This document shows, piece by piece, positions 10,566 through 12,701 of a DNA stretch of 12,749 nt. The stretch comes from an uncultured Acetatifactor sp. (lineage in GTDB: Bacteria; Bacillota; Clostridia; Lachnospirales; Lachnospiraceae), in assembly GCA_947626405.1 (NCBI GenBank), contig CANQSE010000029.1:1-12749 (forward strand), given 5' to 3'. Numbering within the stretch: position 1 is the stretch's first letter; each line of letters begins with the position of its first letter. A program made the position numbers and the translations under genes. The notes under the pieces were generated by a model, which was given only the letters and a program-made list of their open reading frames with translations, did not search any database and was not told where the DNA came from.

Positions 10566-11388
10566 AGAAACAGGGCGAAGCTCTCCCATCGGAGTTTTTG
10601 ACTCCGGAGTGGGAGGACTGACGGTTGTCCGTGAGATCATGCGGCAGATCCCGAATGAAAAAATCATATATTTCGGAGATACCGCGCGTGTTCCGTACGG
10701 CAGCAAGTCAAAGGAAACCGTCACCCGCTATTCCGAGCAGATCGTACGGTTTTTGCGCACCTTCAGCGTTAAGACCATAGTGGTCGCATGCAACACGGCC
10801 AGCGCGTGCGCGCTTGACACCCTCGAAAAAGATATTGACATTCCCATTATAGACGTGGTAAAACCGGGGGCAAAAAACGCCGCGGAAGTCACGCGCAACG
10901 GCCGTATAGGCGTGATTGCAACGGAAGCTACCATCGCCAGTCAGATATATACGGAATACATAAAACAGCTCAACAGGAATGTGACTATTTACGGTAAGGC
11001 TTGCCCCCTTTTTGTTCCTCTTGTAGAGGAAGGGCTGCTTGAGGATCCCGTCACTGACGAAATCGCCAGACGCTATCTCTCGGAGCTCATTGATATCGAT
11101 ATCGACACGCTGATCCTGGGGTGTACGCACTACCCTCTTATCCGCTCGACGCTGGGCAGGATAGCAGGCGAAAATGTGACTTTAGTCAATCCGGCCTACG
11201 AAACGGCGCTGGAATTAAAGCGCAGACTGGAATCGCTTGATCTGCTAAACGACGACCCTCCGGCGCTTGGCGCCAACCAATACCGTTTTTTTGTGAGCGA
11301 CAAGGCGGAAAAATTCGTACGGTTTGCAAACTCAATTATAAAATACGGCATCCTTTCCGCAAAAGCCGTAAACATTGAAGAATATTGA
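10552..11388 (+). CDS. murI: Glutamate racemase
   Basis: Cofactor-independent racemase making D-glutamate for the peptidoglycan stem peptide in the cytosol. The 278-residue length fits. Visible are PIGVFDSGVGGLTV (12-25) with catalytic-site D17 and S18, YFGDTARVPYG (40-50), the first catalytic cysteine C80 in VACNTASA, the second C191 in LGCTHYPL, and the phosphate-like contact region NPAYETA. The pair of cysteines on opposite faces is the hallmark of two-base racemases. The start overlaps the preceding small gene by 14 bases, with GGAGG about ten bases upstream. A DUF1934 gene follows after 25 bases in the same direction. Confidence 0.97.
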   Translation: MEINRETGRSSPIGVFDSGVGGLTVVREIMRQIPNEKIIYFGDTARVPYGSKSKETVTRYSEQIVRFLRTFSVKTIVVACNTASACALDTLEKDIDIPIIDVVKPGAKNAAEVTRNGRIGVIATEATIASQIYTEYIKQLNRNVTIYGKACPLFVPLVEEGLLEDPVTDEIARRYLSELIDIDIDTLILGCTHYPLIRSTLGRIAGENVTLVNPAYETALELKRRLESLDLLNDDPPALGANQYRFFVSDKAEKFVRFANSIIKYGILSAKAVNIEEY

Positions 11389-11413
11389 CAGACGTAAAAA
11401 GGATTCCTCCGAC

Positions 11414-11824
11414 ATGAACAGACATGCCATTCTCACCATCACCGGATACAATGAAGACGGAACCGTCACCCGTCAGTCAGCCGTGGGAGAATATTACGAG
11501 AGAAACGATAGTCTCTTTGTACTGTACGAGGACGAAACGGGAGACGGCTTAAAAAATAAAAACCGCATAAAGCTTAAAGGAAAACGCCTTGAGCTGGTAC
11601 GGAAGGGTTCCGTCACGACCTGCATGATCTTTGAGCCGGGCCTTAAGCATGTCACGGATTACTCAACGCCCTACGGCATGACGAAGCTCTGCATCTCTAC
11701 AGAATCCGTAAAGGCGCTCCGGTTGGGCGATTCCGTTGAAATATCCGCCGTATACGATCTGTCGGACGGAGAACGGGTTATAAACCGCTGTAAAATTTTG
11801 GTCAATATCGAATTTCACGTGTAA
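11414..11824 (+). CDS. DUF1934 (YwiB-like) beta-barrel protein
   Basis: A 136-residue cytosolic protein matching the DUF1934 family, small calycin-like beta-barrels of unknown role, of which Bacillus YwiB is a member. It shows the alternating beta pattern and family-like positions: opening strand AILTITGYN, LFVLYEDETG, then RIKLKGKRLELVRKGSVTTCMIFEPG, YSTPYGMTKLCIST and a C-terminal ISAVYDLSDGERVINRCKI. The ATG at 11414 is chosen because AAAAAGGA ends ten bases upstream; an in-frame TTG at 11375 has no ribosome site and would overlap murI. In Bacillus the gene lies next to argS; here it follows murI. Its stop codon doubles as the -35 element of the SigD-type promoter for the next gene. Confidence 0.85.
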   Translation: MNRHAILTITGYNEDGTVTRQSAVGEYYERNDSLFVLYEDETGDGLKNKNRIKLKGKRLELVRKGSVTTCMIFEPGLKHVTDYSTPYGMTKLCISTESVKALRLGDSVEISAVYDLSDGERVINRCKILVNIEFHV

Positions 11825-11849
11825 ACTTTGCGGCTCAAACTGCCGATAT
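11822..11849 (+). promoter_or_regulatory. SigD/sigma-28 (flagellar) type promoter
   Basis: TAAA (11822-11825) is followed after 16 bases by GCCGATAT (11842-11849). This is a full match to the Bacillus SigD pattern TAAA-N14-16-GCCGATAT and 7/8 to the enteric GCCGATAA. Transcription would start near 11856, giving a leader of about 68 bases for the gene at 11924. A much poorer SigA alternative (TTGCGG, 17 bases, TTTAAT) overlaps it. Confidence 0.7.
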
Positions 11850-11923
11850 ATTTAATACAATCATGGATGATGTTGCGCCCGTTAAGGGCAGAAACGGCGT
11901 ATTCCGCCAGAAAGAGGGACAAT

Positions 11924-12571
11924 ATGAGTGTAAACGGAGTTACATCAACACAGGCTGCGGCTGCCTACAATTATACCGCACAGGAAAACAAAACAGTGGA
12001 TGAAGCGTCAAAGGCTGTAGAAGCATCCGAAGTCAAAAAGCAGGACACCGGAGTTTACTACGAACCCTCAGCCGACTCTCAGACTGTAGATTCCGCAAAG
12101 AAAAATTATAAGCCTGACACGAATCTGATAAACAAGCTGAAAGCAGACGCGGAGGCACGTACCGCACAGCTTCGCAGCCTGGTCGAAAAGATGATGAGCG
12201 GACAGGCAAACACATACGGAAAGGCCAACAATATCTGGCAGTTTTTGCGCTCCGGCAGCTATACCGTTGATGCCGCGACCAGGCTGCAGGCTCAGGCCGA
12301 CATTGAGGAGGACGGTTACTGGGGCGTAAAGCAGACCTCAGATCGAATCATAGATTTTGCCACTGCCCTTACAGGAGGAGACCCCGACAAGATCGAGGAG
12401 ATGCGCGATGCGTTTAAGAAGGGATATAAGCAGGCAGAAAAGACCTGGGGCGGTTCTCTCCCCGATATATCCAAGCGCACCTACGACGCCGTGATGGAAA
12501 AATTCGACAAGATGGCAGAAGAAGCCAAAAAGAGTACCCAGGCAGCTCAGGAAGAAGATCCGACCAAATAA
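11924..12571 (+). CDS. Unknown 215-residue protein behind a flagellar-type promoter
   Basis: No signal peptide or membrane helix. Residues 1-60 are low-complexity, rich in Ala, Ser, Thr, Gln and Lys (MSVNGVTSTQAAAAYNYTA start) and probably disordered. About 65-90 is a charged helix. About 115-205 forms a compact domain with IEEDGYWGVKQTSDRIIDFA, a GGDPDKIEEMR turn, KQAEKTWGG and LPDISKRTYDAVMEKFD. The C-terminal part resembles, from memory, proteobacterial proteins loosely labelled 'hydrogenase-4 component G' or DUF5610; I cannot confirm this. The ATG at 11924 has AGAGGGA five bases upstream; in-frame upstream starts lie in the promoter and leader. A motility-related role is inferred from the promoter and the flagellin/hook-like N-terminus, not shown by the domain. 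Confidence 0.8.
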   Translation: MSVNGVTSTQAAAAYNYTAQENKTVDEASKAVEASEVKKQDTGVYYEPSADSQTVDSAKKNYKPDTNLINKLKADAEARTAQLRSLVEKMMSGQANTYGKANNIWQFLRSGSYTVDAATRLQAQADIEEDGYWGVKQTSDRIIDFATALTGGDPDKIEEMRDAFKKGYKQAEKTWGGSLPDISKRTYDAVMEKFDKMAEEAKKSTQAAQEEDPTK

Positions 12572-12583
12572 TTTTTGTTTGGT

Positions 12584-12624
12584 AACAGGTCGTCCTGTTT
12601 AGCCGCGCCATACAGGCGCCGGCT
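12584..12624 (+). other. Two tandem hairpins after the gene at 11924
   Basis: AACAGG-TCGT-CCTGTT (12584-12599) is a perfect 6-bp stem. It is followed directly by AGCCGCGCC (12601-12609) pairing with GGCGCCGGCT (12615-12624) with one bulge, then a short GTTTAT. Together they may help end or stabilise the upstream transcript, but the T-run is weak. Confidence 0.4.
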
Positions 12625-12633
12625 GTTTATATA

Positions 12634-12678
12634 AAGCCATGGGAGTCTGCGTTAAGCAGTCTTCCCATGGCTTCTATA
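12634..12678. terminator. Long inverted repeat between convergent genes, probable bidirectional terminator
   Basis: AAGCCATGGGA (12634-12644) pairs perfectly with TCCCATGGCTT (12663-12673). An inner CTGC-GTTAA-GCAG stem (12647-12659) caps it. TTCTATATTT follows on the plus strand and TTTATAT on the minus strand. Its place between converging genes supports a terminator in both directions, although neither T-run is long. Confidence 0.6.
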
Positions 12679-12701
12679 TTTGCAGATTCTTTTACTCCGC
12701 T

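Follow-up and report, generated by a model that had tools for sequence, protein, structure and literature searches.

In the window, the whole 12,749-nt stretch of DNA analysed here, an uncharacterised gene of 215 amino acids (gene X, 11924..12571, + strand) is very probably transcribed as a late flagellar gene from a genuine SigD (sigma-28) promoter, and its leader would be a CsrA target of the type known for flagellin (hag). The reading is built on the promoter motif, its conservation, the co-occurrence of X with flagellar genes across Lachnospiraceae and covarying hairpins in the leaders, all of which were observed, and from these we infer the use of SigD, the binding of CsrA, the release by FliW and the timing. 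We regard X as an overlooked flagellar-regulon gene, its predicted regulation being of a known kind.

Promoter motif upstream of X and its conservation

The predicted SigD promoter consists of a -35 element TAAA (11822..11825, + strand) and a -10 element GCCGATAT (11842..11849, + strand), both recognised by pattern match. The complete motif TAAA-N16-GCCGATAT at 11822-11849 on the + strand was the sole match in the window and was absent from 200 dinucleotide shuffles; the first-pass annotation had described it as a full match to the Bacillus SigD consensus, and its observation of the motif is exact. The transcript of X is expected to start near 11856. The TAA at 11822-11824, which overlaps the -35 element, is the stop codon of the upstream ORF (11375..11824, + strand, with a TTG start per the ORF listing), identified as DUF1934 (PF09148, 84.5 bits against a cut-off of 22.5). 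The annotation's proposal that this stop codon supplies the -35 element is true at 11822-11824, but the overlap is incidental because only 4 of the 18 named relatives examined, in which DUF1934 precedes X on the same strand, share it (a nineteenth locus, L217, with DUF1934 1.7 kb away, was excluded from this count). The overlap as a designed feature was rejected on the same count. Downstream of X, folding revealed a possible terminator (12623..12685, + strand), a strong hairpin (-34.0 kcal/mol) followed by a T-containing tail, which is missing from the list of a terminator scan that permits loops of 3-8 bases.

The source assembly is a 1.97-Mb draft of 287 contigs with 84.85% completeness. The pattern TAAA-N14-17-CCGATA matched 27 times in it, compared with 16 matches for its reversed form, and 18 of the 27 sites were without a gene start within 260 nt downstream in a crude scan. 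This own-genome count is too weak as proof, and genome-wide the motif carries little weight by itself. Conservation of the motif across relatives was taken as the decisive evidence. One of the 27 sites, TAAA-N16-CCGATA, lies 64 nt upstream of an ORF of 91 amino acids that was identified as FlgM by TIGR03824 and PF04316, both over their cut-offs. The flgM gene is a classical sigma-28 target. The genome also encodes FliA/SigD (260.8 bits against an NCBIfam cut-off of 189.6), along with two FlhA, five Flagellin_N and two CsrA matches and one FliW; the presence of this sigma factor and of a flgM gene with the same promoter supports the earlier reading of the motif as a SigD site.

Leaders of X homologues came from 109 of the 177 X-bearing genomes, giving 110 matches in all, as G221 contributed two. 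These comprised the 30 best and 80 further listed matches, mostly with the match starting near residue 1, and the other X rows were excluded before their leaders were looked at. A script assigned the start codons; some may be misplaced, and such rows were kept in the counts. One leader was dropped for N, leaving 109 of up to 220 nt each. A set of named relatives contributed 79 of its 80 loci, one locus being too short. Of the 109 X leaders, 84 contained CCGATA (against a mean of 4.8 and a maximum of 11 in shuffles, and 5 in reversed sequences), 69 contained TAAN-N14-17-CCGATA (0.54 on average in shuffles; reversed 0) and 38 the strict TAAA-N14-17-CCGATA (0.2 on average in shuffles; reversed 0). 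Among the 79 named leaders, 46 had CCGATA and 41 had TAAN-N14-17-CCGATA. Leaders without CCGATA numbered 25/109 in the first set and 33/79 in the named set, and variant -10 elements such as GCCGAAAT and TACGATAT occurred among the latter.

The neighbours of X in the window are ispE, gntR, murI and DUF1934, and the locus is not a flagellar one. With flanks up to 4 kb, tblastn detected ispE in 65, gntR in 63, murI in 47 and DUF1934 in 43 of the 80 named loci, with X in either orientation relative to them, and DUF1934 or murI flanked X in 1 of 29 other loci of the first set (tblastn E 1e-3, flanks up to 1.5 kb; some DUF1934 neighbours may escape tblastn because DUF1934 diverges fast). Rather than varying among relatives while the coding regions stay conserved, the -10 and -35 elements persist before X across many genera while the adjacent gene and the orientation change, TAAA and CCGATAT at sigma-28 spacing being conserved among the X orthologues. 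It is very improbable that the motif is a chance match, with X transcribed from a housekeeping promoter or as part of the murI-DUF1934 operon. Such an explanation could draw on the end of DUF1934 at the motif and on the excess of the loose pattern over its reversed form in the genome, but the motif is kept where DUF1934 is not a neighbour or is oppositely oriented, X follows flagellar genes, and a sigma-70-type scan gave no promoter near 11822-11924. In addition, the full promoter pattern was found in none of 188 leaders of the neighbouring genes, 13 of which had CCGATA (usable leaders came from 49 of the 63 loci with a tblastn match for gntR, 63 of 65 for ispE, 44 of 47 for murI and 32 of 43 for DUF1934). 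The SigD reading of 11822-11849 is well supported computationally.

Distribution and sequence features of X

X was found in 177 of 397 Lachnospiraceae genomes, FlhA in 212 (200 over the cut-off) and CsrA in 210 (208 over the cut-off). Among the 177 X-bearing genomes, 174 had FlhA and the three without it all had CsrA; a CsrA match was likewise present in 174, the other three having FlhA. FlhA or CsrA was present in 177/177 of these genomes and X in 0 of the 180 genomes with neither, an association (Fisher 6.7e-74) whose value is inflated by relatedness. X occurs together with the flagellar system, and its distribution across the 397 genomes, together with the conserved promoter, supports its earlier placement in the motility regulon. 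A minority of flagellated Lachnospiraceae is without X (40 of the 217 genomes with FlhA or CsrA). Cultivable carriers of X include Kineothrix alysoides (L288).

Comparison within genera covered a selected set of 36 genera, namely those with a second member present in the X or FlhA listing; in a few of them, including g91 and g95, handle numbering served to identify the first member. In 5 of the 36, one member was without X, FlhA and CsrA and the other had all three. Three genera were discordant: X differed in g15 with FlhA in both members, FlhA differed in g35 with X in neither, and FlhA differed in g96 with X and CsrA in both. A class-wide search gave an X match in 29 of 291 genomes, of which 8 were the own genome or from the same family and one of the other 21 was marginal. 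G193 had five X matches, most listed genomes having one or two. Two distant X homologues from other Clostridia (L299 and L300) lie downstream of ORFs that by eye resemble methyl-accepting chemotaxis proteins.

Neither Pfam nor NCBIfam gave a match over a cut-off for the X protein, and its comparison with PDB sequences gave one chance-level match (E = 1). Its relatives number at least 7,694, the share of 7,999 scored candidates that reached E <= 0.001 in a protein search. The N-terminal third is strongly variable and the C-terminal part conserved, which would fit, but does not prove, an export substrate. A literature search of open-licence papers returned nothing recognisable as X among titles and abstract openings, and no paper on DUF5610. 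Membership of X in DUF5610 (PF18433) was considered and rejected on the curated Pfam cut-off: weak matches were obtained in 11 of the 29 members of alignment A1 (best E 0.0073), all scores seen were below the cut-off, the best of 14.8 bits lying far below the required 26.4, and GET2, an unrelated family, weakly matches 10 of the 29 in the same scan. The X protein of the window had no DUF5610 match. Some Acetobacterium homologues of X are named DUF5610 in UniRef, and for four Acetobacterium proteins so named (P0132, P0133, P0153 and P0157) the domain was not listed at E <= 0.1. Protein P0204, an 'anti-sigma28 factor' according to JGI, was considered as a FlgM-X fusion and dropped, as a Pfam scan at E <= 0.1 did not list the FlgM domain for it.

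ANGGAN hairpins in the leaders of X

The leaders of X hold short hairpins with an ANGGAN hexaloop, which the first-pass annotation had missed. In the window, where the leader would be about 68 nt long, hairpin search and leader comparison placed a predicted CsrA site 1 at 11860..11871 (+ strand; ATC-ATGGAT-GAT, an ANGGAN hexaloop on a 3-bp stem). It is followed on the same strand by stem-loop 2 (GCCC-GTTAA-GGGC, 11877..11889, from folding), stem-loop 3 (GGCG-TATTC-CGCC, 11896..11908, from folding and the alignment of close relatives) and the Shine-Dalgarno (SD) sequence GAGGGA (11914..11919), within which AGGGA at 11915-11919 forms a predicted CsrA site 2, ANGGA being close to any Shine-Dalgarno. 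The site-1 stem of 3 bp is weak and absent from the minimum-free-energy fold (fold z-score -1.08). A comparison of the window with Rfam was negative up to E 1.

Across relatives, ANGGAN hairpins with at least three Watson-Crick pairs were present in the last 110 nt of 67 of the 109 X leaders, whereas shuffles averaged 1.5 (maximum 5) and each of ten altered loop motifs gave 0-3. Among named relatives, 63 of the 79 leaders had such a hairpin. Flagellin leaders, used as a positive control, had the hairpin in 17/30 and CCGATA in 14/30, and by eye a flagellin leader of the source genome has an 8-bp hairpin with the loop ACGGAT. In a family-wide set of murI leaders, from which 4 of 30 loci gave no usable leader, the counts were 0/26 and 1/26, respectively. 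Leaders of the neighbouring genes at the named X loci were nearly devoid of the hairpin (gntR 1/49, ispE 1/63, murI 0/44, DUF1934 0/32; 2/188 pooled).

The stems were examined in 185 distinct leaders. Upstream of the SD zone, 57 of 120 distinct ANGGAN sites have three flanking pairs, compared with 5.9 expected (maximum 15) on random reassignment of the 3' flanks and with 0-6 for the ten altered loops. As many as 23 different stem triplets were seen at the paired sites, for example ATC-GAT, GTC-GAC, ACC-GGT and GCC-GGC. Within the SD zone, 28 of 125 sites were paired against 7.0 expected (maximum 17). In leaders with a promoter match, 103 of 105 hairpins lay downstream of the -10 element and 2 upstream of the -35, a position that is as expected if they act as RNA elements, with 39 of the 105 being SD-zone sites and downstream by definition. 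Some ANGGAN hairpin was present in 128 of the 185 leaders, and two designs can be distinguished across the leaders L036-L145 and L213-L292, with a hairpin far upstream of the SD in 73/185 or an SD-embedding one, such as ACC-AAGGAG-GGT, in 63/185, both together being rare (8/185).

An alignment of 19 leaders from close relatives showed the site-1 helix paired in 100% of cells and stem-loop 3 in 89.3%. Within site 1, one pair shows a double change from A-U to G-C and two are invariant. In this alignment three of five measures (percentage paired, covariation score and doubly changed cells) exceed 500 of 500 shuffles. The other two do not: 69 of 500 shuffles reach the observed number of doubly changed pairs and 500 of 500 that of further pair types. 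The broad set of 185 leaders is the stronger evidence for covariation than the 19-leader alignment.

The leader family presents ANGGA in a hairpin loop with a covarying stem, and the source genome contains both csrA and fliW. RsmE contacts an ANGGAN hexaloop, and the SELEX-selected CsrA hairpins described in the same review mostly combine a six-base loop with no more than four contiguous pairs (PMC7652899). The SigD promoter could still be real and the hairpins serve a role unrelated to CsrA, in mRNA stability or with another RNA-binding protein; this would accommodate the many leaders with a single hairpin, the scarcity of an upstream and SD-zone pair, the weak site-1 stem of the window and the fact that we only infer CsrA binding to the X leader. 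We hold it to be unlikely, as the loop is restricted to ANGGAN when set against the altered motifs in both tests, ANGGAN is a published CsrA/RsmE element (PMC7652899), nearly all X-bearing genomes have a CsrA match and the flagellin leaders share the element. The putative CsrA-type leader is a link to flagella independent of the promoter and more informative than the stop-codon overlap.

Relation to known systems and the proposed role of X

The hag gene of B. subtilis is under SigD control. Its translation is repressed by CsrA at two sites, and FliW freed by flagellin export relieves the repression (PMC7652899, a review). Like hag, X has a sigma-28 type promoter, ANGGA motifs in the leader, of which one, a putative CsrA site, overlaps the Shine-Dalgarno, and csrA and fliW in the genome. 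Unlike hag, X is not a flagellin and sits by ispE-gntR-murI-DUF1934, and its control by CsrA/FliW is a prediction from sequence. The flaA mRNA of Campylobacter jejuni carries two ANGGA sites in hexaloops whose stems show compensatory changes, FliW is the antagonist, and CsrA there binds several flagellar mRNAs besides flaA (PMC4894983); that host is Gram-negative, and its CsrA binding was demonstrated by RIP-seq and reporters, whereas that of X is predicted from sequence. For Roseburia/Eubacterium flagellins, predicted sigma-28 promoters are described and csrA is noted in a flagellin locus (PMC3720852). X resembles them in having TAAA and CCGATAT, and the N16-17 of the Butyrivibrio reference fits the N17 to CCGATAT here; it differs in that the cases described in that paper are flagellin genes.

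X is most likely a SigD-transcribed, CsrA/FliW-controlled late flagellar gene, like flagellin. SigD would transcribe X late, and CsrA, bound to the hairpin with the ANGGAN loop and to the ANGGA motif of the Shine-Dalgarno, would prevent translation. Flagellin export would then free FliW, releasing CsrA repression, and X would be made together with flagellin once the hook and basal body are finished. Control through the flagellin checkpoint would suit a protein that has no use until the hook is complete, for example an export substrate or a filament partner. Tentatively, X could be a flagellar protein typical of the clade (Lachnospiraceae and some other Clostridia). It might act as a filament/assembly factor or be a late substrate of the flagellar export apparatus, and a SigD promoter and CsrA-FliW checkpoint in common with flagellin would keep the synthesis of the two in step.

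Across hundreds of genomes this nameless family accompanies the flagellar genes, and it shares flagellin's two apparent layers of control. It appears to be a missing part of the motility programme and suggests that CsrA-FliW in Lachnospiraceae governs more than flagellin. If true, a non-flagellin protein family in Gram-positive bacteria would be under homeostatic control of the flagellin type. Flagellated Lachnospiraceae are common gut commensals with pro-inflammatory flagellins (PMC3720852).

In the source genome, csrA lies next to fliW on contig C48, and a second, divergent CsrA-like gene (64.9 bits) is located directly upstream of the flagellin gene at L146 on contig C97. Two further TAAA-N14-17-CCGATA sites of this genome, L002 (G000:C19) and L005 (G000:C37), precede ORFs of 290 and 206 amino acids, respectively, which are candidate SigD-regulon genes.
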